Shown here: positions 4,159 through 63,375 of the stretch, piece after piece
Numbering within the stretch: the stretch's first letter is position 1
Layout: each line of letters starts with the position of its first letter
Source: Axinella damicornis
Lineage: Eukaryota; Porifera; Demospongiae; Axinellida; Axinellidae
NCBI GenBank assembly: GCA_963931865.1
Contig: OZ007512.1
Span: 9,054,796 to 9,118,795 of the forward strand
Length of the DNA: 64,000 nucleotides
Direction: 5' to 3'
Made by a program: the position numbers and the translations under genes
Notes under the pieces: generated by a model
Told to the model about the DNA's origin: nothing
The model's input: the letters and a program-made list of their open reading frames with translations, nothing else
Databases searched by the model: none

Positions 4159-5473
4159 TCTGCAGTACGTACATTACAAGCTAGCAAGGTATTATTATTA
4201 CATCAGGAATGGCGTTTAATAATTTCTCACCTATGATGTAGAGAGATGTGTCTGCTATAGGTTAGCAAATAGCCAGCTAGAATGTACTGAAATGAACTAA
4301 TCACTTCACTAGCTTCCTTCTTCTGACATTCAAGCTATAATTATATAGGCAAACGCATGCTACCAAAATTTGAGCTAGTACTGCATGCAGAGTATTTATG
4401 TATGAAGCGTTGCTCTGTGTTTCTCTCACACACAATCGTGTGCCTATGGAATAAGGAACTGCAATTGTATCCCACTATCAAGACTTTCAGTGTGTTCTTA
4501 TACAATTATAGGCAAATCCCTGTGGGGAATCCTTCTCAATAATTGCTCCAGGTGCAGCAATTATTATAGCTGCAGTACGTACATGACAAGCTAGCAAGGT
4601 ATTAGCTATTATTACATAAGGAATGACGTAGAGAGATGTGTCTGCTATAGATTAGCAAATAGCCAGCTAGCATGTACTCAAATGAACTAATCACTTCACT
4701 AGCTTCCTTCTTCTGACATTCAAGCTATAATTATATAGGCAAACACATGCTACCAAAATTTCAGCTAGTACTGCATGCATCTAGCTATACAGAGTATTTA
4801 TGTATGAAGCGTTGCTCTGATAATAGCTGTGTTTCTCTCACACACAATTGTGTGCCTATGGAATAAGGAACTGCAATTGTATCCCACTATCAAGACTTTC
4901 AGTGTGTTCTTATACAATTATAGGCAAATCCCTGTGGGGAATCCTCCTCAACGATACCTTTATTCCAGATACATAGCAACATCTAAACGTCCTCTGCCCA
5001 GCTGATTACAGGTTCAGATTGCTGTTCTGAAAGCTAAAACTTCCTCTGGTCCGGCTTTTTCCAGATTTGTTCTGAAAGATGCAAACTTTCCTGCCATTCT
5101 GAATGCAAAAATTTCCGCCTGGTGACGCTGAGTTGATTGCTGTCTGAGGCTCCAACTTCACCTGTGACCATGCAGTCTGGGAATGCGCTCCTCTAAAATC
5201 TATCACTATTGTCTGTGCTGCAATTCTGCTGGAAATTCATGCCCAGTCAACTGAAATCCACTGTATAGCTAGTCATGCAGTCGATTGTACACCCAACACT
5301 CTTCAAGTTTTCAGTATAGCTACCTGGTCATGGACAAAATGATCTAGCCATGCCTGAACAAGTAACTGAATACAGATCCGGCTACCTGATATCTAGCTTA
5401 ATTTGTCAAAGCATAACTGTGTGGTCAACAAATGTAGAGTTCAATTAGCTACTGAAGAATGACGACTATGATT

Positions 5474-6089
5474 GGGGCGAGCGTGAGCGAGCCCCACATA
5501 GACGAGTTTGCTTCGAATTTTCTATATATGTTTATATCTGTCGTACGTCGTGCCGTAAATCACTTCCTGCTCGTATTTTGCGTGTTCTTGCATCATGCGT
5601 TATTTCCAAACTGAGTTCTCGTGCGTTGATATCGCGGAGAACTGTCAACTGAGACGCGAACCGTGTCTGAACAGTCTACCTCAACAAGGCCTTGCATGGA
5701 GACTATAGCGGGGCGGTGAGTGGCTAAAGCATTTCATGAAGACGGGTGAACCATGGTACCATGAACAGTCTAACCAGGCTCTGTAGCTACCTTCTCGCCT
5801 GTGGTGACAGCAAACTGGACGAAGTCCGCACTTAGCTAGCTAGCTAGCTACCTATTGTATTCACCGACCTCAGACCGGTACATGTCCTGCAGAACACATG
5901 CCATTGTCACATGGTGTACTAGCAGCATGCATATAGGCCCCTGTGTTGTGCACGTGTGTCATATTACGATTTCTGTCATCTCAGTCGTGCAACATTGGAT
6001 GGGCTGCATTGGCAGGGGACATTAAAATTTGACTGACTGTGCATGCAAATAAGTACTCGTTCTGCATTGTACTCGCTCACGCTCGCCCC
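5474..6089. mobile_element. Nonautonomous element, GGGGCGAGC family, copy 1
   Basis: The segment starts with GGGGCGAGCGTGAGCGAG and ends with the reverse complement, an 18-bp terminal inverted repeat. No transposase frame is present. The right part is homologous, in inverse orientation, to 41726-42622, including flanking bases beyond the CCCC end (ATGCATTCTCCTAG in both). The true boundary on that side may therefore lie further out. A TAGC tract lies inside near 5833. Confidence 0.65.
5833..5851. repeat. (TAGC)n tract
   Basis: Four uninterrupted TAGC units. Similar tracts lie at 41881-41892, 45719-45732, 46181-46200 and 50749-50764. See the TAGCTA footprint finding for a possible origin. Confidence 0.9.
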
Positions 6090-6156
6090 ACAATGCCATG
6101 CATTCTCCTAGTTATATGTGAATGTGTAGTAATATAGCTAGCTACTGGGTTGACAA

Positions 6157-6249
6157 TAGCCTCGTTCCCAGGCCCCGCCCAGCTTTTCGTCGCTTGCAGT
6201 ACGTTCTTTCGTGCAACCGAAACGGCGCGCGGGCCTGGGAACGAGGCTA
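6157..6249. mobile_element. MITE of the TAGCCTCG family with 9-bp target duplication
   Basis: Ends are TAGCCTCGTTCCCAGGCCC and its inverted complement. The element is flanked directly by GGTTGACAA at 6148-6156 and again at 6250-6258, a perfect 9-bp direct repeat. The 93-bp element has no coding capacity. Nine-base target duplications are characteristic of Mutator-like elements, so this is probably a MULE-derived MITE. Confidence 0.85.
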
Positions 6250-6369
6250 GGTTGACAAGTCAACACTGTGTGTAATAATGCAACTAGCTCAAGAGAAATA
6301 TTTGGGCACTAAGTGTCACTACTGAGTGAATATAGCTACTATAATTATATAAATCCACTTTAAAACTTG

Positions 6370-7200: not shown

Positions 7201-7623
7201 CAATAAGTTTGTCGTGGTCCCGTGGATCAGTCTGTTCTTCTGACATTATATTAAGTAGTTTAAATTAATCACCAGTCAAAGAAATCTACCCTAGGAAGTT
7301 ACTACAGAATCAATTCACGAACCTGGCACTCTCTGGTAGTACCAGAGGCTGAGTCTAATGTCCTGACAGTAGCCTTTGCTGTTGCATAGTAGTAGAGACA
7401 GTCAAATGACAAGCTTGACAAGTAATGGCACTCCTATAGACAATAACCAGACAAATCTCATTGCAAAATTTTACTATGTAATCCAGTAGCAGGTCCTTTC
7501 GCGACCACCAAATAAATATTATGGACCCCCTTCTCTGTTGGATTAGCATACAGCAAATATGTGGGACTTGCAATAGAGTAATAAAGATGAAGATTCTTAG
7601 GACTTACAAAAAGAACATTATAA

Positions 7624-8448
7624 TTACAGTAGTATCAAATCACTGTCACTGTTCTTAGTCTCTTCGATTGTGATTGAGGTATGTTCCTCAGGCGTCAACA
7701 GCTCCTCCTCCAAATCAGTCTCCGATCTCCTCTGGGACCTCTTTTTCCTCTGGGATCTCTTCCTCAAGTACCATCCCAGTGCAGACAGTGGAAACGATGG
7801 AAGCAATGACAGATATACTCCCTTCACTCCAGTTCCAATTTGTACTTGCACCAGCAGCATCAGTTCGTACAGGACAAGCAGTGCGAGAATGAGTCCGATG
7901 GTTGCAGTAATCATGACAAAGTACACACATACAATTCCACAACACCTTACACTGCTCTGGAAACTTTTCCTTCTTGGTTTTTGACACTGATACAGCACAT
8001 AGGCAACAATGAGTGCTAAACCAACTGTTGTTAGTAGCACAGTTATTATATAGACGATAGTAACTTGCGGGTGGATTGGTAGCAGTACGCCCAGTGGGAT
8101 AGCAATCATGGTAAAGAGTTGTACGGTAGTCAGAATATTCCATAATGCAAGTAGCTATGTGAAATGACAACAGCAGGTAATGCTTCATGGAGGAACATCT
8201 GCAACCGGCATACCTCTGCTTTGTATCGTAATGTTTCTTCACAGTGTACATGGAAATCAGTAGTTCCACTAACACAGCAACTGGGATGATGGTACACTTG
8301 GCCACTAGAGTAAGCACTTCATCATAGTAAACACTTGTATCAGATGGAATTTCACAGGGATGATTAAGAAGAGGAATATGATACAGGTTGTAATGGACGG
8401 ATGATTGTGAGTACATTGATGCGTAAGTGAGACTGTAGTGTATCCGAT
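7624..8448 (-). pseudogene. Receptor exon 2, 5'-truncated and frameshifted
   Basis: The C-terminal half is intact from the stop at 7624 through hydrophobic segments 7, 6 and 5, with the family tail ending SDSDLILL. At 8152-8157 the sequence has TAGCTA where other copies have TA; the extra four bases break the frame inside segment 4. Beyond it the other frame carries segments 4 and 3, then further small changes near 8370. Homology stops at 8448, before segment 2, and no ectodomain exon follows. It is a dead copy. Confidence 0.9.
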
Positions 8449-9897: not shown

Positions 9898-9940
9898 TTT
9901 ACCCTCAGTCCCAGGCCATATTGACTTGGGAACGAGGCTG
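9898..9940. mobile_element. Degenerate MITE of the TAGCCTCG family
   Basis: Left arm CCCTCAGTCCCAGGCC and right arm TGGGAACGAGGCT are recognisable versions of the family termini with several mismatches. No target duplication remains. Confidence 0.5.
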
Positions 9941-10310: not shown

Positions 10311-10342
10311 GGTGCATCACAATACCAATAAGTTACAGTTAA

Positions 10343-17473: not shown

Positions 17474-17508
<35 letters not shown>

Positions 17509-19515: not shown

Positions 19516-20875
19516 AGCTTCTACCACAGACATAACCTGGCAAGTGAAGTTAGTAGCTGGATCCAGCTGCTAGACAGCTACAACTCTCTGATTCTCAGCA
19601 CAGCGTGGTTCGATTACGTCATAGCGGAGGATAACCGATTTATCCTCTGCGGTACATCAAAGGATCGCCCACGCACTGTGGTAGAAGGGCAACATCACTG
19701 GCTCATAACTCCTATACCGAATGAGCTACACACTCAAACTAGATTTCCTCTGGTGTCACTTCCTCTGTACTAATAATCAACATTAGAATGTACTGTAAGT
19801 GCGTACTTAGTTGATATCGGTCCATTCAGGAGGATATATTAGATGGGTCAGGGTATCTTGCATGCAGTGGTAACAGGATCTGACTAGTATCAACTATGGC
19901 AACAAAGTAGTTGACATTATACGACTTCCTCCAGAAGCCTTATATAAACCTCCAATTAGCCATTATTGGACAGAACTTGTTGCTCAATAATTATTGTTTT
20001 AGACTCAAATTTCTGCTGCAAAAAGTGCATGGTCCCAGTCCAGAGATTCTCATGTAGCAGAATGGAAGTCTGTACATGTACGTGCTTTGGATCGAGCTTA
20101 GCACTGCAGGTTTAGTGTATATAAAATCATGCAAGGTCACGCTCTACGGACTTTCTACTCCTGAGACCCACCCATCATACCTGGTTGTCTTTGGAAATAA
20201 ATATTTTGTCACATTTTCCAGTGCAGCACGTTCCTCCTGCTTATAGAGACTCCCAGCAAGAAATTGCCACGGTGCATCAGGCACGGTAGCGATCAAATAC
20301 TGGAGGACCTCTTCCCTACTCACACACTTCTCGGATGGCACTTCTAAACCAATAGCTGCGCAAAGATGCTGATCATCAACACATTCAATCGCAGAGGAGA
20401 GGTTTTGGAGGGTGAATGTAGGGTCTGCAGGGAAGGAAGAAAGAAGAAGGGAACTTGAGGGACGGGCATGAATGATTCAGTATACTGGGGGTATTTTTTA
20501 CCTTCACCAAATTCATTGTGTGTCTTCTTTTAAACTTAGCACACCTTCATACATGTAGTGACAGATGTCTTGATGTTTCCAATGCACTCGTCATGCTCAC
20601 AGATTATGTGACCTCTCGTATAATATTATGGATCACCTAATTGACAATCACAAACTTTACATGTACTAACACACACTCATTATTACCTAATCTACATGAA
20701 AGGGTGCACTGCTGTTTCAGCTGAGAGCTCAAATGTGTATAGTTTCAAGAGGCCCAGGACCTATTCAGAAGCTAATTAGTCTGAGGTGTACATGTAGGAT
20801 CTTTGGCTGCACCTCTTTAAGACAGAAGCAACCTAGAAATTGAGGGACATGTCGCCGTGGTGTACGTAATGATTG

Positions 20876-23409: not shown

Positions 23410-25100
23410 TCATGCATGGAGAACCTCCGGAGGATTTAACTGCAGGATCTCCTCGTCCATATCAGTCTCTGATCTCCTCTGAGATCTCCTCTTCAAGTAC
23501 CATCCTAGTACTGGCAGTGGAAACGATGGAAGCAGTGACAGAACTATTCCCTTCACTCCAGTTTCAATATGTACTTGCACCAGCAGCATCACCTCGTACA
23601 GGACAAGCAGCATGAGGATGAGTCCAATGGTTGCAGTAATCACGACAAAATGCAAACACATACTTCCACAGCACCATACACTGCTCTGAATATTTCTCCC
23701 ACTTGATCGCCTTTGACACTGATACAGCAAGTAAGCAGCAATGGTTGTGAAACCAGCAGGTATCATTAGCAAAAATAATATATAGATGATAGTCACTTGA
23801 GGATGGCACGAAAAGGGGAGTAACAGTCATGGTGAAAAGCTGTATCACTATCAGAACATTCCATAATGCAAGTGTCTGGACTAAACGCTTCAAGGAAGAA
23901 CATCTGCAACCAACACACTTCTGCCTTTTAAGGTAATTGTTCTTCACAGTGTACACGGAAATGAGAAGTTCAATAAACACTGCAATCGGGATGACGGTAA
24001 ACTTGGCCACTAGAGTAAGCACTTCCACATTATAAGCACTTGTACCGGTTGGAATTGTGCATTGATGGTTAGAGAGCTGGATGATGCAGGATGCAATAGT
24101 TGGGTGATTGTTAAAAAGTTCCTTAACTGAGGTTGTAGTGTATCCGACGTTGGTCAGGAAGGCCATACCTGCTGCTGCCCAATCTCCCTTTGAAGCTTTG
24201 GTCATCATCTTGGGATAATATGAGGAGAGTAACTTTACAAGCACAATTGGTGTGAGAGTATTTAGGAACACAAAAGCACCAAATAGAGAAAAACGACAGA
24301 CGTCAGTATTGCAACCTGATCCTTTGAAAGGTCTTGCTACCTTATCATTATAGCTCATGGCGACATATCCTCTGTCATTTTCATTTGTTGGTTTATTGAT
24401 GTGGGCGTATGACTTTACCTGTACAAAAGAGGGGTCATGAGTATGCAACATGTAAAGAGATATCACCCCAAAAAAACAACATTATTTTGCAATGACAGGC
24501 TAGGTGAGCTTACACTACCAATTCTTTGATGCTCAAGTATGCATGCCTTACCATACAAAATATTATTATACCATATACACAAGCATGCACTGATGTTCGT
24601 ACCCAAGGTAGGAGTTGCATCAATGCTTCCAACAGGTCATCCTCGGAAGTGTTACAAGGAAGAGTGTCAATGTGGAGCGAACTCTGTAAGAAATCGCTGT
24701 TTTGTATGGTGTCGTGAATACTGCGGCATATCACATTGTCTAATAATATTAGTAACTGATCAATCGGAATGATGTTGAGTAAGGGAGAACTGCTCCACTG
24801 AAAATTCTGGTGGTACGAGAAGTTGACCAATGTACCAGGCAAGGTAGGATGTCCGTCACAACCCTCTGGTAGCGTACTGTCAACGCTGACATTGATGAAG
24901 ATTAAGTCTTGGGATGACCCTTGGGACGGAAAGAACGTGTGCTGCATCAGGTACCCTACTTTCCTGTCTGTGATCAACGCATGTTCTAGTTTCTGATACA
25001 CGACTTGGGGTGCAAGGTACTGGATCGTGCTTCTTGCTGTCGCAGCTATAGTAACTGTTATCAGAACAAAGGTGCTAGCATGCAGTGTCCACATATCCAT
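23410..25100 (-). pseudogene. Receptor copy with frameshifted exon 2
   Basis: Exon 1 is 25100-24603 (start at the ATG in ACCATGGAT; donor GTACGA, weaker than the GTGAG of its partner). Exon 2 is 24418-23410. Exon 1 is complete with signal peptide, the FQWSSSPLLN motif and LPW end. In exon 2, an in-frame loss of 18 bases removes six residues at the start of segment 2, and an 11-base deletion near 23806, relative to the copy at 49766, shifts the frame between segments 4 and 5. Downstream the second frame carries segments 5 to 7 and a short tail ending PPEVLHA. The copy is probably non-functional, unless the reference has an error at the deletion. Confidence 0.8.
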
Positions 25101-25501
25101 GGTGATCAATTAATACCTGCATATGAAGAGAAAAAACAAATCTGACATACATAATGTATAATAATGAGCATACAACATCGTAACTACACAAGGCTTGTAC
25201 AGTGGCTGAGTGTAGACCGCATCCTACTCATAATTATACATTGTGACAAATAAATTAGCTAGTTCTTTCCTCTAGTCCAGCATGCATATTACAACAAGTC
25301 AGCTGTTTACAGCTTTCTAATTTTACGACTTGCCATCTAGCTAGGTGATATGTTTGGATGTATAGAGACCACATTAGCATGATTGCTGTTTATGTAGCCT
25401 TTGTCTATTTGTGACATAAATGCTCATAGGAAAAAACAACAACAAAAAAGAGTACCTACTCTGGTTTAGCAATAGAATACTGTGATAACCAACACATCGC
25501 C

Positions 25502-25538
25502 TAGTCTCGTTCCTAGACCCCCTTCGGGAACGAGACTA
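25502..25538. mobile_element. Minimal TAGTCTCG MITE with perfect 9-bp target duplication
   Basis: TAGTCTCGTTCCTAGACC is followed by its inverted end GGGAACGAGACTA. CACATCGCC stands immediately before (25493-25501) and after (25539-25547). The orthologous copy at 52710-52746 has the same left flank but a mutated right one, so insertion predates the duplication. Confidence 0.85.
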
Positions 25539-27923: not shown

Positions 27924-29702
27924 TTATGCCGGCAAAGGCAATGAATCTCCACCGTCACTATTATCAGTCGTTTGAGTCATGCACGGAGAATCTTCATTAG
28001 GAATTAACTGCATCATCTCCTCATTCAAATCGGTCTCCGATCTCCTCTGTGTCCTCTTTTTCCTCTGGGATCTCTTCCTCAAGTACCATCCCAGTGCAGA
28101 TAGTGGGAACGATGGGAGCAGTGACAGAACTATCCCCTTTACTCCAGTTTCAATTTGTACTTGCACCAGCAGCATCACCTCGTACAAGACAATCAGTATG
28201 AGGATGAGTCCAATGGTTGCAGTAATCGCAACAAAATGCACACACATACTTCCACAACACCTCACATTGCTCTGGAAACTTCTCCTTCTCGGTTGTTGAC
28301 ACTGATATAGCATGTAGGCAACAATGACTGTGAAACCAACTGGTGCTAGTAACCCAAAAATTATACTAGTGATAGTCACTTGTGGGCGGATCAGCAGCAG
28401 CACACAAAGGGGAGTGACAGTCATGGCAAGAAGTTGTAAGGATATTAGAATACTCCACAACGCAATCGTCTGAACTGAAAGTAGTAGGTAGTGCTTTAAG
28501 GAGGAATGCCTGCTAATGACATATTTCTGCCTTACATCACAATCGTTTTTGACGGTGTACACAGAAACCAGAAGTTCTATAAACACTGCAACTGGGACGA
28601 TGGTAAACTTGGCCACTAGAGTAAGCACTTCGTCATTGTAAACACTTGTATCAGTTGGAATCAAGCATTTGTATTTAGAAAGCTGGATCATACAGGATGT
28701 AATGGATGGATGATTGCGAGTATATTGATGCGTAAGTGAGGCCAAAGTGTATCCAACATTGATAAGGAAAGTTATACCTGCCGCTGCCCAGTACAAATAT
28801 CTCATGAAGTGTCCAGTTGAAGCTTTGGTCCTGATCTTGGGATAGTGTAAAGACACTAACTTTGCCAGCACAATTGGTGTGAGAATACTTAGGAACACAA
28901 AAGCACCCAATAGACAGAGACGATAGAAGTGCGTATACTGATCTGCTCCATTGTAAGATCCTGAAACCCACTTGTCATAGCTTATGGAGACATATCCTTT
29001 GTCATTTTCATCTCTTTGTCCGTGGGCTCGGGCATACGACTTTACCTGTACATGAGGCGGGGTGAGTGTTCCAACATGTTATAATGAATGTGCCTGCATT
29101 TAAAATGACAAGTTACAGTGACAAGTTTAGTGAAATTATTAGGCTAGCTTCTTTCCAACACCATGCATATGCCATTTCCTTACGCATGATGCCATACACA
29201 CGCACACACTGCATAAATCGGATGCACTCACCCAAGGTAGGAGTTGCATCAATGCTTCCAACATGTCATCCTCAGAAGTGTTACAAGGAAGAGTGTCAAT
29301 GTGAAGCAAAATATTCAAGAAACCATGATGCTGCGTAATTCGGTAAATCCATTCACTTATGACATTATCTAGTATTAGTAACTGATCAATTGATATGAGG
29401 CTGAGTAAGGGAGAACTGCACCACTGAAATTTCTGGAAGTACGAGAAGTTAGGTGTATTGGGTAACATACTGTCAATGGTGACATTCACACTAATAAAGA
29501 TTAAGTCTTGAGGTAACCCTTGTGATGGAAAGAAAGTGTCTTGCAGCAAGTGTCCTACTTCGCTATCTGTGATCAAAGCATGTTCAAGTTTCTGATACAC
29601 AGGTTGTGTTGCAAGGTGGTGTGTGCTTCGTGCAGTTGATGCAACAGTTATCAGAATGAAGATGCTAGCCTGCAGTGTCCACATGTTCATAGTGATCAGC
29701 AT
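27924..29702 (-). CDS. Two-exon seven-TM receptor-like membrane protein, copy 4 (intact)
   Basis: Exon 1 is 29702-29232 (157 codons) and exon 2 is 29045-27924 (373 codons plus stop), with donor GTGAGTGC and acceptor CTGTACAT...-type CTGTACAG variant CATGTACAG. The product is about 530 residues with the family layout: signal peptide with TLQASIFILI, motif VYQKLEHALITDSEVG, FQWCSSPLLSLISIDQLLIL and LPW end, then stalk GYVSISYDKWVSGSY and seven hydrophobic segments. The tail ends GGDSLPLPA, unlike the DLILL ending of copies 1, 5 and 10, so at least two tail classes exist. A pyrimidine tract with TGTGCAG lies directly before the first ATG, suggesting a 5' UTR intron. Start could also be the ATG four codons further in. 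Confidence 0.8.
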
Positions 29703-35083: not shown

Positions 35084-35355
35084 ATCATGACTTTCAGTTT
35101 TGACTGTGCGCATATGCATACTAATAGTCCTTTCACACCCACCCAATAAAGACTATGGACCCCCTTCTCCGTTGGATTGTCACACAGCAAATGCATTACG
35201 CATGTGGGATATAGGGACTTGCTATAGAGTAATAACGATGAATGCTAAACAGATTCTTAGCTATCTTCAGGACTTACAAAAAAAAGAACACTACGTACAA
35301 AAGTATCATCACTGTCACTGTTCTCAGTTTCTTGAATTGTGATTGAGGAATGTTC

Positions 35356-37494: not shown

Positions 37495-37778
37495 ATGGCG
37501 TGCAAAAGTTCCGGTGGTAGTAGTTTCTCTGAGGCTCTTTCCTATGCTTTGCGAAGACTGAAAATGACACGGATGACTGTGAAAGAAGAGCAGCGCTCCT
37601 CCATGAGAGCTGTGTACGAAGGCAGCGACGTGTTCGTGTGGCTAGCTACCTACTGGCTATGGCAAGAGCCTGTGCTACCAAGCGCTCCCTTTCCTCATGG
37701 ACTAGCTACAAGAAGGGACTTGTAGACAGTGGAAAGAGCTGTGGTGTGCTTGTTGTGAGCCCTTTGATCGCTCTCATG
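37495..37778 (+). pseudogene. 5' fragment of a RecQ-type DEAD helicase gene, captured
   Basis: From the ATG at 37495 the frame reads MACKSSGGSSFSEALSYALR and LKEEQRSSM-like QRSSMRAVYEGSDVFVW. The next motif should be the Walker A box of a RecQ-family helicase; TGYGKSLCYQALPF is present in another frame and SCGVLVVSPLIALM follows. The frame is broken twice, at 37643-37648 and 37703-37708, each by the sequence TAGCTA where TA would keep the frame. The captured part stops after motif Ia, so no ATPase could be made even without the breaks. RecQ enzymes unwind DNA in repair; here it is passenger sequence. Confidence 0.8.
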
Positions 37779-41725: not shown

Positions 41726-42622
41726 GGGGCGAGCGTGGCGAGTGCAATGCAGAACGAGCATTTGCATGTACAGTCATTCAAATTTTAATGTCCCTGCCAA
41801 TGCAGCCGGTCCAATATGTTGCATGACTGAGGTGACAGAAATCATAATATGACAATCAGTCTATGACACACATGTCTGGTCTAGCTAGCTAGCACACCAT
41901 GTGTTCTGCAGGACAATTAATATTGTAGCTAGCTACAGGTCTGAGGTTGGTGACTATAGGTAAGTCCACCAGCGGTCTTGCTGTCACCACAGGTGAGAAG
42001 GTACAGAGCCTGGTTAGAATGTTCATGGTTCGGCCACCGCTCTAGCCACTGAATAGGTAGGTCCACGAGTGGTCTCCATCTGTGTTGTCGCCATCGTCCA
42101 TCGAACAGGCCTAGTAGAGTACTCGCGCGATGCAACTTTGCTATGTAGGTGAGAAGGTATACGAGCCTGGTTAGACTGTTCATGGTTTGCCCATCGCTCT
42201 AGCCAATGAATAGGTAGGTCCATGAGTGGTCTCCGTCTGTATTGTTGCCATTGCATCGTCCATCGAACGTATGACGTAAGAATACGCAAAATAAGAGCAG
42301 GAAGTGAATTACGGCATGACGTACGATACATATGAAGGGGCGAGAAGCAAAGTGGGCCAACCCACAATGAATTAAGTGTGGGGAATGGTGTGAAATGTTC
42401 AAAACTGCATTAAAAATCATGGACTATATGTGGGGTTTTTCCAAAAAATTAAAAGGTGGAAATTGCCTGAAACACATTTTGCAAGGACTTCCACATCAAG
42501 GGGGTGAAAATTGATGTTTGTGGGTTAGCCCACTTTTCTTCTCAGACCTTCATATATTATAGATATAGATATGGAAAATCTACAGCTAACTCGTCTATGT
42601 GGGGCTCGCTCACGCTCGCCCC
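41726..42622. mobile_element. Nonautonomous element, GGGGCGAGC family, copy 2
   Basis: Starts GGGGCGAGCGTGGCGAG and ends CTCGCTCACGCTCGCCCC. It is related in inverse orientation to 5474-6089. Inside, a unit of about 160 bases with GAATAGGTAGGTCCA(C/T)GAGT and GTCCATCGAAC is tandemly duplicated (about 42000-42110 and 42160-42270). No transposase frame. Confidence 0.7.
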
Positions 42623-44405: not shown

Positions 44406-44549
44406 TAGCCTCGTTCCCAGGCCATCTGCCAGTCGCACGCGCATCGCATACGTGACCTTTGAACCCTTGTCACATAGCTATGTGACAAGGGTTCAAAGGT
44501 CACGTATGCGATGCGCATGCGACTGGCAGACGGCCTGGGAATGAGGCTA
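44406..44549. mobile_element. Near-perfect hairpin MITE, TAGCCTCG family, 9-bp target duplication
   Basis: The entire 144-bp element folds on itself: TAGCCTCGTTCCCAGGCC at the left and its inverse at the right, with arms continuing unbroken to a centre CACATAGCTATGTG. Only about three mismatches were noticed. TGTTTGAAG flanks it at 44397-44405 and 44550-44558. The arms include GGTTCAAAGGTCA, a DR1-type nuclear receptor site, in both orientations. Near-perfect arms suggest recent activity. Confidence 0.9.
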
Positions 44550-46180: not shown

Positions 46181-46384
46181 CTAGCTAGCTAGCTAGCTAG
46201 TACAGTTTGGCACTGGCACATGCGGCAACACACACATGAATGTAGACAGTTCCTCTTTTGCTCTTTGTTTCTGCGACACTTCACAAACCTGCTTCAAAAA
46301 CCTGTTTCCACCATCAAAGTCAGTGTTAGAGGAACTAGCTACTATAAATCCACTGTAAAACTAAAACTCATATAATGAAAAGCA

Positions 46385-47067: not shown

Positions 47068-47705
47068 TACTTGCACTGTTCTCAATGTGGCTGACATTAG
47101 TACCAGGTTGACGCGAGTTGTGGGATTTTCACTTTTTAGAGATTCGACCTACTTGTTGAAATCTTACATGAATGATTGGCACAGATTAGAGTACTTACCA
47201 CCATACCACATTTTATTTGTGCCTGGATACTGACATGTGTAGCTACATGTACGTGTCTAGGTATGAGTTGTGGGGCTGTTTAATTTTGAGCATTCTCGCA
47301 TGAATGATGACAGTTTTCTTTGTGCTTGGATGTGACTGACACCCAGACGTGTACTAGTCCAGGTATAGTAGATGTGAGTTGTGGGACTGTCCTATTTAGA
47401 ATAGGATTGCATTCTTTGTATTGCATAAATGGCTCGCACAGATTCAGTCGTGAAGTGGTACACTGTATATGATATCATTGATCATTATCTTCCTGTGGTA
47501 ACAGTTCAGTGTGTACTATTCCTGCAGTCCAGTTGTCCATATATGCATTCCCTCATCCATTCTGGTCCCTGCATGCACAACGACATGCAGTAGCTTATAC
47601 ATGCAGGACTCATTCATGCTAGCTTGTACCAATTACACAACTCACATTTCAGCTCATTGGTCCACTTGATCAGAATGAACATGCTAGCTTGTAGGGTGAA
47701 CATAT
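47068..47705. repeat. Intergenic spacer repeat of the receptor array, copy 2
   Basis: Homologous to 6370-7200 but more diverged, with deletions. It has a GCTA insertion at 47240-47245, where the other three copies read TGTACATG. The following stretch to 48226 is the usual 3' flank of a receptor copy and holds no gene. Confidence 0.8.
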
Positions 47706-48226
47706 AATCATGCAAGATCTGCACATTATATGTATACCATCAATTGTATGCTGCACCAGTTAGCTATACCTAAACAGAAACTTCTAACGCTGACCCATAA
47801 CTATGTTGGTGGTGCCAGTTCAGTCCGAATGCATGCTGCAGTAGATCTACTGTCCTTGCCTGTTCCAAATGTTTAACATAGCTACTGTTACGATACTAGA
47901 GCATCTGTACGGTAGCTGCGCTGTTTTGTGATCCCTTCTTCCCTGGATGTTTCTCTCCAGCTCTAGCTAGCTCAGCTACAGCCTGGTTATAGCTACTAGC
48001 TACTGCAATCACGCACGGCTTTGTATACAGTATCATCATTCCAGTGTTGACTGCATACTATAATGTAGTCCAGTAGTCCTTTCACACCCACCAAATAAAG
48101 ATTATGGACCCCCTTCTCTGTTGTATTTCTGCACAGCAAATACATTACGTATGTGGGAAATAGGGACTTGTACTTGATGAGTGCTAAACAGATTCTTAAC
48201 TATCATCAGGACTTACAAAATGAACA

Positions 48227-52327: not shown

Positions 52328-55177
52328 GATGATCAATTAGCTAATACCTGCATATACAGAGAATAAAACAAATCTGACATACATAATGTAACGAGCACAC
52401 AATATCAATGAACTACACATGGCTGACTGTAGACCGCATCCTACTCATAATTATACATTGTGACAAATAAATTAGCTAGTTCTTTCCTCTAGTCCAGCAT
52501 GCATATTACAACAAGTCAGTTGTTTACAGCTTTCTAATTTTACGACTTGCCATCTAGCTATGTGGTATGTTTGGATGTATAGTGACCACATTAGCATGAT
52601 TGCTGTTTATGTAGCCTTTGTCTATTTGAGACAGAGATTTTCATAGGGAAAAAAAAACAGGTGCTACTCTGGTTTAGCAATAGAATACTGTGATAACCAA
52701 CACATCGCCTAGTCTCGTTCCTAGACCCACTTCGGGAATGAGACTACACATTGTCATTGTTCAAATGAGCTAACCATGCACTTCAATTTGCAGCGGTCAA
52801 CAAACTATACCGCAGAAACCCAGCAGTGGGGAACAGTTCCTTTGTGTTTGGTTTAGTGCTTACACATGTGCAGCTATATAGAATGAGTTGTGGGAAGATT
52901 ATAGTCGGGACACTTCATAAACTATGACCTACACTGATCGACCACTGTGTACCAAACCTCAATGTCTGAGGATGGCTATACCACTTCACGACTGAGTTTG
53001 TAGCTAACAAATGGAATCCCGGCCCATGGCGGATTCTAGTCTTGGTACAGAAATGAATCTGGCCACATCCAAATGGGACCACGGTAACCCACATTCTTGA
53101 CACAGTAAAATACTATTATAACTACTAACTAGCAGCACTGAATCTAGACTAGATAGCTAAGTAGCATATCGATCGAATCATTAGTGAAACTTGCGTCACC
53201 ACCTGCTCATCAGATGCCAGTAGTTGGATGGCCCAAGTTATACAGATTGTTTCCTCATCAACTGCTCATCAGATTCATGTAGTTGGATGACCCAAGTTAT
53301 ACAGAATATTTGTTGCTTTAAATTTTGAATCTAAACACTACCCACACATCCCACTATCAAAACTTCCTTCATTGTGGGCTGTTGATTAGTAAATCCTTAT
53401 GAGGAATCCCGCTATGATGCTTTTACTTACAGTAGCTATAAGGAACTGCAATGGCATCTCCACTATCAAAAACTTTCAGTTTGTACAGATGCTTAGAATC
53501 ACAAATTTGGCGTATGTTGAAAAGCAGATCGTTGTGGGGAATCCTGCTAAAATGCTGACGTTTTGCAAGCAACGCTGTCAGTGTTGAGATAGTCCTGGAA
53601 ATTTAGAGGACGGGGCGGAGGGGGGGAGGGGGAGGATCTTTGATCCACTGAGCTTCAGTCTTCAGGAAAATTGAAACTAACGTGAGGTTAAAAAATCCCT
53701 GGAAAGATATGAGGTCAGCCTTTTGTACGTCATCATAGTTCCATGCCAGGCAGTCTCGAGCACATGCAACAGTGGTTCTTTTCACATTGGGTGACCTTGA
53801 TCAGTGATGACCTTTTAAATTCCCTTATGGGTCGACTGTTACTGGCTAGCTAAGTATCTCCACCATTAATTTTTCTACTGACCTCAGCAGGTTACGTTGT
53901 TGTTAAACAAATTCATTTAGCTAGGGATCTTGTGGTGACCTTCAAACCACATTATACTTCAAACAAGATCTTTTGTTAGCAGTAACAAGCATAAAACCCA
54001 ATCAGAAATCTCAGTAACATTGTGTTACCAATATTTATGTTGACTTCTCTCTATAATAAGCCGTCAACAGTAAGTTCAACTTCAGTGTGAACGTTGAGTT
54101 TCTTGCATTCAACTTTCGATTAGGAGAAACATTATGTTAGTATTGATTGAAGACGTACAGTACTGCAGTATGTCATTACCCATGAATGAATTCTGGAGTC
54201 ACACGGTCACTCATGCTGACTGCAGGTCAATGACCAAGAGAATGTAGTAGATTTAGTGAGAATAGCAATCAGTGTTGGATTTGAGTTCAGTTTTGCCAAC
54301 TTATGCTTGTACAATAATTAACGCTATTCACATCCCTAAATCTGGTGATACTGAAAGTCCTGGAAATTTAGAAGCCGAACTTCTGTAAGCCAAAACTCAT
54401 TCTAGTTGGAAACTGAAATTTTCGACCACTTGTCACAATTACTGGAGCCTGGGAACAAGGAGGGCTTGCTAAGAATAAAATTCCCTATGTACATGCAGCA
54501 CCCCAAAGAACACATTTTCATGCATTCAGCACATACCACATTCACAAGTCCTCCTCTCCCACAGCATTCACTCATCAGAGGCCATCTGGCAATTAACTAC
54601 TGGCAATACCATTCATGACCACAGCAATTGGAGGTCAAATGTGGATGTCAGCCAGATTCTCACCCAGGACAACCAGTGCAGACACCTCAGCTTGGATGAC
54701 ACAGCTATGAAATTTATTTTGCGATAAAAGTGTAACTGTGCTGGTACTTACAGGTCTATACAGTAGGTGCTACAGGCAAAGGCTACTCAACTGCACCCAA
54801 CTTCAGCTCAAAGAACTCTAACACATGGTTCGACTTATGTATTAAGTCATAAATGACATAATACACAAATCATGGTCTATAACTACAAATGTATAGCTCT
54901 GCCAGGGTTTCCTTTTGATGGCATCGTGAAAAGTTATTTTGTAATGAAAGCAACATCATGAATTGTGTAATAAAACATACTGTGTTGCAAGGTACAAAAT
55001 GCATATTACAGGGATAACTTATAATGTCGTACTGATACAAAACATTGTTATACAAAATGTTAAAGTGACTACGACAATAAAGTAAGAACATCATGCACAC
55101 AGAGCAGAGGTGGTTGTGATGCAGTTATCAGTATGCCTTTGCATAAAGAAATCATCTGTCAACTTTTGTGAACAGCA
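52328..55177. other. Receptor-array spacer, no gene seen; partner 25101-27923
   Basis: Duplicate of the spacer at 25101-27923, with a TAGTCTCG MITE at 52710-52746 and a GCTA insertion at 52338-52343. No gene supported. Confidence 0.7.
52710..52746. mobile_element. TAGTCTCG MITE, duplicate of 25502-25538
   Basis: Same element in the duplicated spacer. Left flank CACATCGCC is kept; the right flank has changed to CACATTGTC. Confidence 0.8.
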
Positions 55178-56847
55178 TTATGCCGGCAAAGGCAATGAAT
55201 CTCCACCGTCACTATTATCAGTCGTTTGAATCATGCACGGAGAATCTTCATAAGGAATTAACTGCATCATCTCCTCATTCAAATCGGTCTCCGATCTCCT
55301 CTGTGTCCTCTTTTTCCTCTGGGATCTCTTCTTCCTCTGGGATCTCTTCTTCAAGTACCATCCCAGTGCAGACAGTGGAAACGATGGGAGAAGTGACAGA
55401 ACTATCCCCTTTACTCCAGTTTCAATTTGTACTTGCACCAGCAGCATCAGCTCGTACAGGATCAGCAGTGTGAGAATGAGTCCAATGGTTGCAGTGATCA
55501 CGACAAAATATACACACATACTTCCACAACACCTTACACTGCTCTGGAAACTTCTCCTTCTCGGTTGTTGACACAGATACAGCATGTAGGCAACAATGAC
55601 TGTGAAACCAACTGGTGCTAGTAACACAAAAATTATACTAGTGATAGTCACTTGTGGGCGGATCAGCAGCAGCACACAAAGGGGGGTGACAGTCATGGCA
55701 AGAAGTTGTATGGCCATTAGAATACTCCACAATGCAATTGTCTGAACTGAAAGTAGCAGGTAGTGTTTTAAGGAGGAACGCCTGCTAATGACATATTTCT
55801 GCCTTACATCACAATCGTTTGTGAGGGTGTACACAGAAATCACAAGTTCTATAAACACTGCAACTGGGACGATGGTAAACTTGGCCACTAGAGTAAGCAC
55901 TTCGTCATTGTAAACACTTGTATCAGTTGGAATCAAGCATTTGTAAACAGAAAACTGGATCATACAGGATGTAATTGATGGATGATTGGAAAAATATTGT
56001 CGTGCAAGTGAAGTTGCAATGTATCCAACATTGATTAGGAAAGCTGTACCCACCGCTGCCCAGTACAAATATCTCTTGAAGTCTCCAGCTGAAGCTTCGG
56101 TCCTCATCTTGGGATAGTGTAAAGACACTAACTTCGCAAGCACAATTGGCATAAGAACGTTTAGGAAGACAAAAGCAGACAATAGCGAGAGACGATAGAA
56201 GTGCGTATACTGATCTGATCCATTGTAAGACCCTGAAACATACTTGTCATAGCTTATGGAGACATATCCTTTGTCGTTTTCATCTCTTTGTCCGTGGGCT
56301 CGGGCATACGACTTTACCTGTACGTGAGGCAGGGTGAGTGTTGCAACATGTTATAATGAATGTGCCTGGATAGGTAGCCAGAAAATGACAAGTTACAGTG
56401 ACAAGTTTAGTGAAATTATTTGGCTAGCTTCTTTCCAACACCATGCATATGCCATTTCCTTACGCATGATGCCATACACACGCACACACTGCATAAATCG
56501 GATGCACTCACCCAAGGTAGGAGTTGCATCAATGCTTCCAACATGTCATCCTCAGAAGTGTTACAAGGAAGAGTGTCAATGTGAAGCAAAATATTCAAGA
56601 AACCATGATGCTCCGTAATTCGATAAATCCATTCACTTATGACATTATCTAGTATTAGTAACTGATCAATTGATATGAGGCTGAGCAAGGGAGAACTGCA
56701 CCACTCAAACTTCTGGAAATACGAGAAGTTAACTGGTGCATCGGGTAACATACATGTACTGTCAACGGTAAATTTCACACTAATAAAGATTAAGTCTTGA
56801 GGTAACCCTTGTGATGGAAAGAAAGTGTCTTGCAGCAACTGTCCTAC
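55178..56847 (-). pseudogene. Receptor copy 9: intact TM exon, 5'-truncated ectodomain exon
   Basis: Exon 2 (56317-55178) is open for 379 residues: stalk GYVSISYDKYVSGSY, seven hydrophobic segments, a six-residue repeat in the basic region (SQRKK three times against two in copy 4), tail GGDSLPLPA. Exon 1 (56847-56512) keeps the ectodomain from VGQLLQDTFFPSQGLP to LPW, but its first 50 or so codons, including the signal peptide, are gone. At 56847 it joins directly to the 3' flank of the next receptor (TTTTCTCCACAGCATGCATG, as at 351 and 31671). An in-frame ATG at 56868 exists but would give no signal peptide. Confidence 0.85.
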
Positions 56848-57389: not shown

Positions 57390-59082
57390 CTACAAAAGTA
57401 TCAAATTACTGTCACTGTTCTCAGTCTCTTCAATTGTGATTGAGGAATGTTCCTCAGGCATCAACAGCTCCTCCTCCAAATCAGTCTCTGATCTCCTCCG
57501 GGTCCTCTTTTTCCTCTGGGATCTCTTCTTCATGTACCATCCCAGTGCAGACAGTGGGAATGATGGGAGCAGTGACAGAACTATCCCCTTTAATCCAGTT
57601 TCAATTTGTACTTGCACCAGCAGCATCACCTCGTACAGGATCAGCAGTGTGAGAATGAGTCCAATGGTTGCAGTAATCACGACAAAATGCACACACATAC
57701 TTCCACAGCACTTTACACTGCTCTGGAAATTTCTCCTCCTTGGTTGTTGACACTGATACAGCACATAGGCAACAATGAGTGTGAAACCAACTGGTGCTAG
57801 TAGCACAGTTATTGTACAGATGATAGTAACTTGTGGGTGGATTGGTAACAGTACACCCAGTGGGACAGCAATCATGGTAAAGAGTTGTACGGCCGTCAGA
57901 AAGTTCCATAATGCAAGTATGTGAAATGATAACTGCAGGTAGTGCTTCACGGAGGAACATCTGCAACCGACATACCTCTGCTTTGTATCGTAATATTTCT
58001 CCACTAACACAGCAACTGGGATGACGGTACACTTGGCCACTAGAGTAAGCACTTCATCATAGTAAACACTTGTATCAGATGGAATAGTGCATGGATGATT
58101 AGGAACCTGGATTATACAGGATGTAATGGATGGATGATTGCGAGTATATTGATGTGTAAGTGAGGCCAAAGTGTATCCAACATTGATAAGGAAAGTTATA
58201 CCTGCCGCTGCCCAGTACAAGTATCTCATGAAGTCTTCAGTTGAAGCTTTGGTCCTTATCTTGGGATAGTGTAAAGACACTAACTTTGCCAGCACAATTG
58301 GTGTGAGAATACTTAGGAACACAAAAGCAGACGTTATAGTGAGACGATAGAAGTGAGTTCGGTCACTGTGTGATCCGTAAGATCCTGTAACGTATTCGTT
58401 ATAGCTTATGGATACATATCCTTTGTCATTTTCATCTCTTTGTCTGGTGGCTCGGGCATACGACTTTACCTGTGCATGAAGGTGAGTGTGTAACATGTTA
58501 CTGTATATAAATAGTTGATTCTCCTTTCCAGCACCATGCATTATGCAATTGATACACATTTATACATACCCAAGGGAGGAGTTGCATTAGCGCTGCCAAT
58601 AAATCATCCTCAGAAGTGTTACAAGGAAGATCATCAATGTGAAATGAAAGTTCTAAGGAACCACGATTCTGTGTTGTGTGGTAAATACTTTCACTTAGAA
58701 CATTGTCTAGAATTAGTAACTGATCTATTGAAATGAGGTTGAGTAAGGGAGAACTGCTCCACTGAAATTCCTTGTAGTACGAGTTGTTAATTGCATTCCT
58801 AGGCAAGAGGGAAAGCACACCGCAACTCCCTGGTAGCATTCTGTTGACAGTGGTAATCACATGAATAAATATCATGTTTGATGACCGTTGTGATGGAAAG
58901 AACGTGTGCTGCAGCAAATACCCTACTTTGCTGTCCGTGATCAAGGCATGTTCTAGTTTTCGGTACACAGCTTGGGGTCCAAGGTGGTCGGTACTTTGTG
59001 CAATCACAGCAGTAGCTATCAGAAGCAAAATTCCAGCATGTAGTAGCAGGGTCCGCATCATTACAGTGATCAGAATCTGCAT
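57390..59082 (-). CDS. Two-exon seven-TM receptor-like membrane protein, copy 10
   Basis: Exon 1 is 59082-58570 (171 codons, donor GTATGTATA) and exon 2 is 58469-57390 (359 codons plus stop), a 100-bp intron in phase 0; about 530 residues. Signal peptide LLLHAGILLLIATAVIAQS, ectodomain with two Cys and NNS/NTS glycosylation sites, LPW end. Exon 2 has all family motifs and the DLILL tail class (SDSNLILL). Nine residues (LLISMYTVK in its relatives) are missing at the end of segment 3, an in-frame 27-base loss near 58003 that shortens that helix to about 16 residues and may affect folding. No frameshift or stop was found. The 3' flank is like copy 1 and the exons like copies 6 and 11, so the gene looks chimaeric. 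Confidence 0.75.
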
Positions 59083-59471
59083 ATAAGGTTATTGTATTTT
59101 CAGCAGTTACTGGTGCGAGTAAAATTCATGGGATACACACTTAAGCATGTATATATGCAGGATAGGCCTGTATGCAGTGTATTATACAGCATACAATGTA
59201 TGTACTCCTTGCAAAACTATTACGACGATAATTTTAAACAATCATTTAACTAGCTACAGTCCGTCAAACACCAGTATGCACAACAAGCTAGGTCATGTAT
59301 CTTGAATTTCACTTGCATGACACTCCGTTGGATGTAGAGAGATAATCTGATTTTAGCAGACAGATTTTCTATTGCATAGCCAACTACTTCACAAACCTGT
59401 TTCCAACATCAACGTCAATGTTAGAGGAACTACTATAATTATATGAATCCACTGAACAACTTGTACTTACC

Positions 59472-60260
59472 TGCACTGTTCTCAATGTGGCTGACACCCA
59501 GACATTAGTAGCTACCAGGTTGACGCGAGTTGTGGGACTGTCACCTTAGTTTGAAATTCAAGTTATTTGTTGAAATCGTACATGAATGATTGGCACAGAT
59601 TAGGGTACTTACCACCATACCACATTTTATTTGTGCTTGGATACTGACTGACATGTGTCCATGTACGTGTCTAGGTATGAGTTGTGGGGCTGTCCAATAG
59701 GATTAATTTTGAGCGTTCTTGCATAAATGATTTCAACCACCACAGTTTTCTTTGTGCTTGGATGTGACTGACACCCAGACATGTGTTCTAGTCCAGGTAT
59801 ACTAGATGTGAGTTGTGGGACTGTCCTTTTTCGAAAGGGAACATTGTTTCTGTTTCATAATGGGTCGTAAGGAGATTCAGTCATGAAGTGGTACAGTTCA
59901 TGTATACGATTTCATCGATCATTAATTTTCCAGTGTAACAATTTCAGTGTGCAATATGCAGTCCAGTTGTCCATGCGTTCCTTCATCCATTCTGGTCCCT
60001 GCATCATGGCTGCATGTACAGCGACAGTATCAAGTACATGCAGGACTCATTCATGCTAGCTTGTACCAACTACACTACTCGCATCTCAGCTCATTGGTTC
60101 ATGTGCTAGCATGAACATGCTAGCTTGTAGGGTGAACATAATTATAATCAATATCTGCACTCAATGAATACTCCCAGGCTGTAGGAGAGGGGAATGAGGC
60201 TATAGGTACTGCCTCTTGAAGGGTTTCTAATTTTTCCTTAGCTACATACTTTTAATCTTG
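59472..60260. repeat. Intergenic spacer repeat of the receptor array, copy 3
   Basis: Homologous to 6370-7200 and 63790-64000. GCTA insertion at 59509-59514. Confidence 0.85.
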
Positions 60261-61643
60261 GGGTGAAAGGAGCACAGTTTATCCTGGTCCTGTTGATCAG
60301 TGTGTGCCTTCATATTGAGTCCATTCCCATTTGAGTCTACCGTCTGAGTTTGTGTCTGTGTCTGTGTCCAGCACCGTATCTGCCTTTACCACTTAGCTAC
60401 CTAGTTTGTAACCGTCAATTGTACTATTGTCCTATGCCTTGCAGTCACACAACAACTGTGGTAAATTAGACCATGGCTCAGCATACGCTATTTTTCACTT
60501 CTCAGGATGGGCTCTCGTGGCACCTTCGCGCTTTGCACTGCAAGTTCCAGATGTACGAGGATTGCAGGTCCCAGGGCCGCCATGAGCTTCTTCCTTGGTC
60601 AAATTTCGCTCACGAACGTAATACGTACGTACACGTACACGTACACGGAGGGGTATACTAGATCGTGGTCTCGTTCCCAAGCCGTTCGGTTTCAGGCAAC
60701 GCACGGTAAGCTTATTGCGAGCTGAGGTTGCAACGTAGCGGCAGCAAGTTGGTAAGGAGGAAAATAAAGTGATGAAGAAGCAAAAGGGGGGGGCACCGGC
60801 CCCCGATGCCCCCCCCCCCCCTAGATCCGCCCCTAGTCTCAGCATACGCTATTTCAATTTTCATCCAGTTTACTGATGCCCAGATGAACTCCCTGGAGGT
60901 CTATCTTGCTACTGTATGGCAATAGGAGAAATGAGTGACTTGCACGTTTTGGTCGTCCTGTAAAGTATGTGCTTGCATTATGACTGTAAAAGAATATGCC
61001 GGTAGTCTAATATTGAAGAGCCCTACACACTCCAATCAGTTCAATGTAATAGGCCTGTGCCTGGCAGCCCTGCCCTGTTGAACATATATGCATGAGTGAT
61101 GTGATACCCTGGTTTGAAGAAGTATACAGCCTATGATTGTCAAGGCATATCGTGTCTGTCAGAGCTAACTTACATCACATTCGCAGCTGTGGCCTTATAT
61201 TCAGCTATAGCAATTCCTAATCAGAAACTTCTAACGTTGACCCATGACTATGTTGGTGGTGCCAGTTCAGTCCGAATGCATGCATGCAGTAGATCTACTG
61301 TCCTTGCCTGTTCCAAATGTTTAACATACTGTTACGATACTAGAGCATCTGTGTGGTCACTGCGTTGTTTTGTGATCCCTCCTTCCATGGATGTTTCTCT
61401 CCAGCTCTAGCTAGCTCAGCTACGGCCTGGTTATAGCTACTAGCTACTGCAATCACACACGGCCTTGTATACAGTATCATCATTCCATGCAGTGTTGGCT
61501 GCATACGAATAGTCCTTTCACACCCACCCAATAAAGATTATGGACCCCCTTCTCTGTTGGATTGGCACACAGCAAATAGAGACTTGCAATAGAGTAATAA
61601 AGATGACTGCTAAACAGATTCTATTAGGACTTACAAAAAAACA
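60261..61643. other. Spacer with transposon ends, no gene seen
   Basis: Holds a partial repeat of the receptor 3' flank (GGTAAATTAGACCATGGCTC at 60459) interrupted by foreign DNA at about 60490-60840, then more array spacer. No gene supported. Confidence 0.5.
60490..60842. mobile_element. Insertion with G/C-run terminus, probable DNA transposon relic
   Basis: CTCAGCATACGCTATTT stands at 60477 and again at 60838, a direct repeat of 17 bases bounding about 350 bases that are absent from the related flank at 57150. The right end is GGGGGGGCACCGGCCCCC and then a C run and TAGATCCGCCCCTAG, a layout common to widespread invertebrate DNA transposon ends. A half TIR GGTCTCGTTCCCAAGCC lies at 60666. 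Confidence 0.6.
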
Positions 61644-63375
61644 CTACAAAAGTATCAAATCACTGTCACTGTTCTCAGTCTCTTGAATTGTGATTGAGGA
61701 ATGTTCCTCAGGCAATAACAACTCCTCCTCCTCTGATCTCCTTTCGGAACTCTTCTTCTTCTGGGATCTCTTCCTCAAGTACCATCCCAGTGCAGACAGT
61801 GGGAATGATGGGAGCAGTGACAGAACTATCCCCTTTACTCCATTTTCAATTTGTACTTGCACCTGCAGCATCAGCTCGTACAGGATCAGCAGTGCGAGAA
61901 TGAGTCCAATGGTTGCAGTAATCGCAACAAAGTACACACACATACTTCCACAGCACTTGACACTACTCTGGAAACTTCTCATTCTTGGTTGTTGACACTG
62001 ATACAGCACATAGGCAACAATGAGTGCTAATCCAACTGGTGCTAGTAGCACAGTTATTATAAAGACGATAGTAACTTGCGGGTGGATTGGTAGCTAGCAG
62101 TACACCCAGTGGGATAGCAATCATGGTAAAGAGTTGTACGGCAGTCAGAATATTCCATAATGCAAGTATGTGAAATGACAGCAGCAGGTAGTGCTTCATG
62201 GAGGAACATCTGCAACCGACATACCTCTGCTTTGTATCGTAATGTTTCTTCACAGTGTAGCTACATGGAAATCAGTAGTTCCACTAACACAACAACTGGG
62301 ATGATGGTACACTTGGCCACTAGAGTAAGCACTTCATCATAGTAAACACTTGTACCAGATGGAATAGTGCAGGGATGATTAGGAACCTGGATTATGCAGG
62401 ATGTAATTGACGGATGATTGTTTGTGTATTGATGTGTAAGTGAGGCCAAAGCGTATCCAACATTGATAATGAAAGTTATACCTGCCGCTGCCCAGTACAA
62501 ATATCTCATGAAGTCTTCAGCTGAAGCTTTGATCCTCATCTTGGGATAGTGTAAAGACACTAACTTTGCCAGCACAATTGGTGTGAGAATACTTAGCAAC
62601 ACAAAAGCACCGAATAGACAGAGACGATAGAAGTGTGTATACTGATCTGATCCATTGTAAGACTCTGCAACCTTGTCATTATAGCTTATGGATACATATC
62701 CTTTGTCGTTTTCATTTCTTTGTCCATGGGCTCGGGCATACGACTTTACCTGTGCATGAGGGTGAGTGTGTAACATGTTACTGTATAAATAATTGATTCT
62801 CCTTTCCAGCACCATGCATGCATTATGCAATATATAGATACACATTTATACATACCCAAGGGAGGAGTTGCATTAGCGCTGCCAATAAATCATCCTCAGA
62901 AGTGTTACAAGGAAGATCATCAATGCAAAATGAAAGTTTTAAGAAACCATGATTCTGTGTTGTGTGGTAAATCCTTTCACTTAGAACGTTGTCTAGAATT
63001 AGTAACTGATCTATTGAAATGAGGTTGAGTAAGGGATAACTGCTCCACTGAAATTCCTTGTAGTACGAGTTGTTAATTGCATTCCTAGGCAAGAGGGAAA
63101 GCACACCGCAACTCCCTGGTAGAATACTGTCGACAGTGGTATTCACATGAATAAATATCATGTCTCCAGATGACCGGTGTGATGGAAAGAATGTGTGCTG
63201 CAGCAAATACCATACTTTGCTGTCCGTGATCAAGGCATGTTCCAGTTTCCGATAGCTACACAGCTTGGGGTCCAAGGTGGTGTGTACTTTGTGCAATCAC
63301 AGCAGTAGCTATCAGAAGTAAGATTCCAGCATGTAGTAGCAGGGTCCGCATCATTACAGTGATCAGTGTCTGCAT
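61644..63375 (-). pseudogene. Receptor copy 11, frame broken three times by GCTA insertions
   Basis: Exon 1 is 63375-62856 and exon 2 is 62749-61644, with normal splice sites. Everything needed for a receptor is present: signal peptide region, ectodomain, seven segments and the DLILL tail. However, three TAGCTA sites stand where every sister copy has TA: 63253-63258 in the ectodomain (creating an immediate stop), 62258-62263 after segment 3 and 62091-62096 between segments 4 and 5. No other frameshift was noticed, so these insertions alone inactivate the copy. Confidence 0.9.

Follow-up and report, generated by a model that had tools for sequence, protein, structure and literature searches.

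TANNTA insertions with self-complementary middles in the sponge Axinella damicornis: candidate excision scars of TA-target transposons

The 64,000-nucleotide stretch of the Axinella damicornis genome analysed here (the window; C8:9054796-9118795, in a genome of 226 Mb and 120 contigs) contains paralogous copies of genes and other sequence that differ from one another by short insertions. The original prediction listed 13 places where one copy would read TA and another TAGCTA, and attributed the four additional bases to the excision of an unseen transposon with a TA target and ends beginning with GC. All 13 hexamers exist, 11 of them exactly where they had been placed and the first two 10 bases away (Table 1); they are a selection from the 109 occurrences of TAGCTA in the window. 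At nine of the 13, an in-window paralog does have TA. The remaining four are the site at 4782, where no such pair was found, the site at 46336, whose three alleles suggest that self-complementary insertions of two kinds went into a single TA, and the two sites in a helicase-like fragment (a family name given by eye), whose status as insertions comes from the reading frame only. One other copy of these two was seen, L024, with identities of 98% and 95% over two queries. Sites were classed by length, as alignments exactly 4 bases shorter, over all paralog alignments spanning the site; some of these rows are loose (about six of the nine rows shown are clean for each of 8152, 62091 and 62258), and the source copies include a pair with 99% identity. 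The insertion is the derived state at 8152, 62091, 62258 and 63253, because one copy carries TAGCTA and several do not. Judged among paralogs, which are the only basis for ancestry here, the multi-copy sites polarise as insertions, as had been predicted.

Table 1. TAGCTA sites and related features (window positions unless a contig is named)
Feature	Position	Strand	Observation
TAGCTA	4603..4608		Paralog 4145-4338 reads TA; 1/1 alignments 4 bases shorter; originally placed at 4613
TAGCTA	4782..4787		Length differences of 1, 2 and 12 bases in the three paralog alignments; no TA/TAGCTA pair; originally placed at 4792
TAGCTA in gene copy	8152..8157		4 bases shorter in 8/10 paralog alignments
TAGCTA in helicase-like fragment	37643..37648		Frame steps by one; L024 copy also TAGCTA
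Second TAGCTA in helicase-like fragment	37703..37708		Frame steps by one; L024 copy also TAGCTA
TAGCTA	46336..46341		TATATA in copy near 63750; TA in copy near 59430
TAGCTA	47240..47245		4 bases shorter in 3/3 paralog alignments, with TC instead of TA in one of them
TAGCTA	47879..47884		TA in paralog 61208-61448; 1/1 alignments
TAGCTA	52338..52343		TA in paralog 24991-25246; 1/1 alignments
TAGCTA	59509..59514		Exactly 4 bases shorter in 2/6 alignments; a third lacks the TAGCTA insertion, with a further gap
TAGCTA	62091..62096		4 bases shorter in 9/10 alignments; equally readable as TAGC tandem duplication
TAGCTA	62258..62263		4 bases shorter in 9/10 alignments; 194-aa open reading frame 62261-62845 ends here
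TAGCTA	63253..63258		4 bases shorter in 5/7 alignments
Extra TA to TAGCTA event, absent from the original list	5789..5792		Compared with 42002
TA to TATATA event	52875..52878		Compared with 25671
TA to TATATA event	59150..59153		Compared with 37080 and 63455
TA to TACGTA event	35295..35298		Compared with 857, 32170 and 48231
Six-base event, TA to TACATGTA	56751..56756		Compared with 29468
Tandem pair of GC-ended elements	C4:1711633-1715485 and 1715484-1719336	same strand (transposase frames)	3,853 bp each

A mechanical census of indels took as its input every paralog alignment of 60 columns or more from the window and from a comparison sample of 200 kb (twenty 10-kb stretches on contigs C1 to C9; 264 kb with the window). 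Indels were required to have at least 7/8 matching bases on each side, and those at one position of the longer copy counted as a single event. Recent duplication of some copies makes the events partly non-independent, and one event can carry more than one form. Nineteen of the 42 four-base events could be written as TA becoming TANNTA, that is, as an insertion at TA that duplicates the TA, a form expected for 1.8% of random 4-mer insertions and 23% of random 4-bp tandem duplications. The middle dinucleotide NN was GC in 11 of these events, TA in 4, AT in 2, and CG and CA in 1 each. It was self-complementary in 18/19, and the chance of at least 18/19 is ~6e-10 given the 0.265 expected of random insertions. 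The change from TA to TAGCTA made up 11/42 events, against 0.15% for random 4-mer insertions and 1.8% for random 4-bp tandem duplications. Among these paralogs, 4-bp indels showed the large excess of GCTA at TA that the original prediction had anticipated. The effect reaches beyond GCTA: GC is the commonest middle, but TACGTA, TATATA and TAATTA share it. Tandem duplication does not account for 10 of the 11 TAGCTA events; 62091 can also be read that way. A process that duplicates TA could in principle leave any two bases between the copies. Because the inserted dinucleotide was its own reverse complement in 18/19 events, we infer that both broken ends carried the same bases, as they would at the two ends of an inverted-repeat element.

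The same four middles stand out in the composition of the genome. In the 264 kb, measured against a first-order expectation, TACGTA was over-represented 4.4-fold, TAGCTA 4.0-fold, TATATA 2.7-fold and TAATTA 2.2-fold, while TATGTA/TACATA reached 1.4-fold and the other ten TANNTA hexamers at most 1.1-fold; none of the 12 with a non-self-complementary middle exceeded 1.44. Every TANNTA whose NN is self-complementary, and no other, belongs to this group at 2.2 to 4.4 times expectation. The four led again in the 200 kb without the window (TACGTA 5.1, TAGCTA 3.1, TATATA 3.0, TAATTA 2.4), followed by TACATA at 1.55. The flanking TA matters too: the next after TAGCTA (3.96) among the 16 NAGCTN hexamers was CAGCTG at 1.76, and with other flanks the same four middles reached at most 1.85 (AATATT). 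The palindrome in TAGCTA also stops at the TA, with z values of 0.0, 1.3, 0.7 and 0.2 at outside positions 1 to 4 (128 sites), so that the outside bases pair no better than shuffled ones; this speaks against a hairpin or template-switch origin. The target-site consensus around TAGCTA is weak. Genome-wide the hexamer occurs 181,016 times, an excess of ~130,000 over an expectation scaled up from the 200 kb. The hexamer read in reverse occurs 35,854 times genome-wide and is a poor control, as it contains CpG.

We put at roughly 0.65 the probability that cut-and-paste elements of the IS630-Tc1-mariner-pogo group left these hexamers behind as scars on excision, with GC-ended elements making TAGCTA. 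The element would sit between two copies of its TA target, and its transposase would cut the transposon 3' ends exactly at the TA and the 5' ends two bases inside. Each flank would then keep the TA plus the first two element bases as a 3' overhang, and with the same inverted repeat at both ends the overhangs on the two flanks would be identical. If the terminal dinucleotide were self-complementary (GC, CG, TA or AT), the overhangs could anneal and be ligated without trimming, and the products would always be TA-GC-TA, TA-CG-TA, TA-TA-TA or TA-AT-TA. TAGCTA would be the product of GC-ended elements, of which a pogo-type family persists in this genome. The two-base cut in that family and the ligation step are suppositions, as is the idea that most of the scars go back to earlier families with GC ends, the majority of them now gone or still to be discovered. 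We found no other mechanism that would predict both the four classes and the stop of the palindrome at TA.

An element with a TA target and GC ends, as predicted, is present in the same genome. A search of the genome with the Pfam profile DDE_1 gave 79 matches, of which 20 loci (69 kb, L025-L044) were fetched as a further sample, together with some short stretches. Both ends were clear in L026 and L035, and one end could be placed by shared sequence in L027, L031, L038, L039 and L040. L031, L035, L038, L039 and L040 have a terminal repeat in common, which starts with GC directly inside the TA in all but L038, where it is visible at a tandem junction. Searched genome-wide with up to three mismatches, the terminal-repeat pattern gave 23 matches against 5 for a backwards control, and the family has at most ~11 copies. 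Of 18 single ends extracted, 16 are preceded by TA and both exceptions are three-mismatch ends; two of the 16 begin with GT rather than GC, and some flanks are shared by duplication. The 738-aa open frame of L040 matches DDE_1 (2.2e-22), HTH_psq (2.1e-7) and HTH_Tnp_Tc5 (1.1e-6), and a partial frame of L035 matches DDE_1 only. Terminal inverted repeats bound L035 at 495-3301, and paired exact ends occur on C2 and C4. With the DDE_1 and helix-turn-helix domains, the TA target-site duplication and the terminal inverted repeats all found, the element can be classified from its sequence as a pogo-type DNA transposon.

The tandem pair on C4 (Table 1) bears on how such an element would be cut. Its two members overlap by one GC, with no TA between them. 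The junction sequence occurs once exactly in the genome and twice more with two mismatches, against 1 for the control, and is a single case. Such a junction would arise if two excised ends were joined by a self-complementary GC overhang, and the joining of the two flanks in the same manner would yield TA-GC-TA; on a two-base staggered cut it bears only indirectly. The idea that GC overhangs pair to a clean TAGCTA gains this one junction, but the family's ~11 copies at most stand against an excess of ~130,000 hexamers and no filled site was seen. The middle GC of the hexamers equals the terminal GC of the family, which is not tied to any scar; excision is a likely mechanism, and the family is a candidate source only. 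Among ~9 independent insertions of the family, two lie in the TA of a TAGCTA (by eye; P ~0.02), a weak hint that it re-uses old scars.

Known systems offer partial parallels. Tc1 leaves the footprint TACATA/TATGTA, and the terminal bases of Tc1 and Sleeping Beauty differ from the ends considered here in not being self-complementary, which gives more than one scar form. Both resemble the present case in duplicating TA and keeping a few terminal bases, and the Sleeping Beauty scar is shown as two TAs separated by three bases (PMC2874221). A precedent is ISY100 of Synechocystis, a member of IS630/Tc1/mariner with a TA target; the cuts fall at its 3' ends and, at the 5' ends, nearly always two bases within the element, and the ligated vector has TATATA (PMC2170065). 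Apart from TA standing where the present model has GC, the chemistry would be the same, and TATATA belongs to the four classes found in this genome; however, ISY100 is bacterial, its terminal dinucleotide is TA rather than GC, and the junction was made in vitro with T4 ligase (PMC2170065). Passer and other elements of the pogo superfamily share the TA duplications and the pogo-type transposase, and the excision scars of Passer run from 0 to 4 bp; the sections seen report no uniform scar (PMC9976928). In rice, where excision sites were likewise compared genome-wide, 8 of 94 DNA-transposon excisions were perfect and the rest had deletions or filler; uniform scars are therefore not the rule, and rice shows the reverse of them (PMC4423477). 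Our literature search, made largely without subscription journals, found no report of a genome-wide TAGCTA scar.

Excision could also have produced the hexamers in another way. If each flank kept a single element base, followed by fill-in and blunt joining, any base would be followed by its complement (G, then C), and TAGCTA would come from any G-initial element. This would explain the four classes without a self-complementary overhang, and it would explain TACATGTA as the two-base version (CA, then TG). That sequence occurs 66 times in the 264 kb against 6.9 expected (9.9 by a second-order expectation); in the 200 kb that exclude the window, 55 occurrences compare with 4.5 expected, and one six-base paralog event produces it, though its occurrences are partly clustered (L014 8361-9793). 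The joining of the tandem pair through exactly one GC points instead to two-base overhangs, as does ISY100 (PMC2170065), and we regard one-base retention as rather unlikely. Occurrences of TACATGTA at L014 8361-9793, window 20072-20788 and window 56750 would in themselves fit the blunt-joined scar of CA-ended elements.

Slippage, in which TAGC units arise and expand through replication errors as microsatellites are born, appears distinctly unlikely. Long TAGC runs are indeed common (1293 overlapping 18-mer matches against 8 for the reversed control), with 23 starts of TAGCTAGCTA and 65 of TATAGCTA or TAGCTATA beside 247 TAGCTA, and 4-bp insertions of the CATG type occur too; against this, ten of the 11 TAGCTA events are not tandem duplications, and the 12 non-self-complementary TANNTA all stay at or below 1.44-fold. 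Perfect palindromes such as these would also result if short inverted repeats provoked template switching or snap-back synthesis, and the first outside position does pair in TAATTA (z 3.4) and weakly in TACGTA (z 2.1). It does not pair in TAGCTA or TATATA (z 0.0 and -1.9 at position 1), and the middle, always the same dinucleotide, does not copy the flank, which makes this origin highly improbable. There is finally the possibility that a common hexamer was simply picked out by eye: the window has 109 copies, three of the 13 listed sites are without a paralog-verified TA/TAGCTA pair, and 46336 is more complex. With 11/42 events in a mechanical census against 0.15% of random insertions, we consider the chance of this next to negligible.

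Several results count against scars of self-complementary-ended elements, or limit how far that reading reaches. The census is dominated by the sequence that prompted the idea, with 38 of the 42 four-base events inside the window; of the four outside, two are TA becoming TANNTA (GC and AT). Duplication of TA extends beyond four-base events: it was found in 4/11 five-base events (middles AAC in 3 and TAA in 1) and 2/5 seven-base events, as well as in 10/52 two-base, 1/16 three-base and 1/15 six-base events, the last being TACATGTA. The next commonest four-base form, CA becoming CANNCA (10/42), includes CATG insertions, for which the model has no explanation. Around the transposases (69 kb), TACGTA (3.4), TAATTA (2.9) and TAGCTA (2.4) lead, but TATATA is not enriched (0.8) and TACATA reaches 1.9. 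TACGTA pairs weakly outside the hexamer, and the outside pairing of TAATTA is in line with a separate repeat, ATAATTAT, to which part of the TAATTA excess is due. The base before the TA is C in 6/15 flanks of the GC-ended family (by eye) against a frequency of 0.15 at the flanks of isolated TAGCTA, so the target context of the family and that of the scars may differ.

Filled sites were sought among the paralogs of this one genome, and none of 17 collinear large-gap candidates (six looked at in detail) or seven gaps of 31-33 bases has the form TA-GC...GC-TA at a scar. The sample yielded no miniature family with GC ends; its inverted repeats that are bounded by TA and begin with GC belong mostly to another family with 9-bp duplications. 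For Tc1-type families there were at least 125 matches to Pfam DDE_3, with 150 of 194 candidates scored; the two loci fetched had no convincing inverted repeats, and with the Tc1-type check covering these two loci, no elements for the CG, TA and AT classes were identified in this analysis. There are, lastly, at most ~11 GC-ended copies to set beside ~130,000 excess TAGCTA. At neutral rates we estimate that a hexamer would last for tens of millions of years, and fixation of the order of one or two scars per thousand years would suffice; the figure for rice, by comparison, is ~0.004 transposition events per generation (PMC4423477). The excision-footprint interpretation is thus supported in part, by the indel excess, the polarity of the insertions and the existence of a GC-ended, TA-target element with one junction fitting a GC overhang, and is weakened by the breadth of the effect beyond GCTA, the few copies, the lack of filled sites and the apparently different base before the TA.

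A more far-reaching version, which we hold tentatively and at somewhat less than even odds, is that elements with self-complementary ends excise almost invariantly and have left four-base scars in numbers of the order of 100,000; GC-ended elements would now be nearly extinct, the scars would serve as landing sites and as seeds of TAGC microsatellites, and the hexamer spectrum would record lost families. If the excision reading is true, small frameshifting insertions of one uniform kind can be traced to a definite enzymatic reaction, and k-mer spectra keep a readable record of past excisions when the elements themselves have disappeared. Whether scars are uniform or messy would become a question testable from the terminal dinucleotide alone, and the TAGC, possibly also TACG and TA, microsatellites would have a non-slippage origin.

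Other elements were considered as sources or seen in passing. A second pogo-type family, with ends TA-CCGTAGGCGCTCTAATTATGC and hence CC-ended, has 694 matches genome-wide with up to three mismatches, against 0 for the control (locus L026 511-3117). All of the first 100 matches listed are exact and many are paired ~500 bp apart, and the family has probably been active recently. Its expected footprint, TACCTA, is not enriched, though a few hundred scars would be invisible against the background. Palindromic TAGYCTCG miniature elements also end in TAGC...GCTA, but they make 9-bp target duplications and were rejected because the four-base scar has none. Very short palindromic elements with ends TAGYCTCGTTCCCAG lie at window 6157-6249, 25502-25538 and 44406-44549, L007 16989-17023, L009 6989-7079 and L020 1553-1598; one spelling of this type of end occurs 26 times in the 264 kb. 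A 9-bp target duplication stands directly outside 12 of 26 end pairs of the palindromic elements, the shortest of these being 35 and 37 bp. A TA-GC inverted repeat at L003 1661-1958 was set aside, as it lies inside a longer inverted repeat and marks no element boundary. Among the gap candidates, L021 5476 has GC after the TA on the left, not on the right, and lies inside a tandem repeat, and the candidate nearest a scar starts at 46362, ~20 bases from 46336, without TA-GC...GC-TA ends. Another of these candidates shows an unrelated insertion of ~232 bp bounded by TA (window 42332-42565), beginning TGAAGGGGCGAGAAG and absent in the related L007 7110-7240. Four-base CATG insertions were seen at window 6989 and 61486 and at L011 5986; two of them adjoin CA, and all are outside the TA rule.

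The window also carries repeated genes that resemble membrane proteins by eye, at 853-1830, 27924-28910, 32166-33143, 55178-56182 and 57390-58559. The two copies tested (27924-28910 and 55178-56182) had no Pfam match; the family has 147 homologous proteins, and 0 of 120 among the matches listed bear a name. Window 1-3772 and 31313-35087 are 99% identical.

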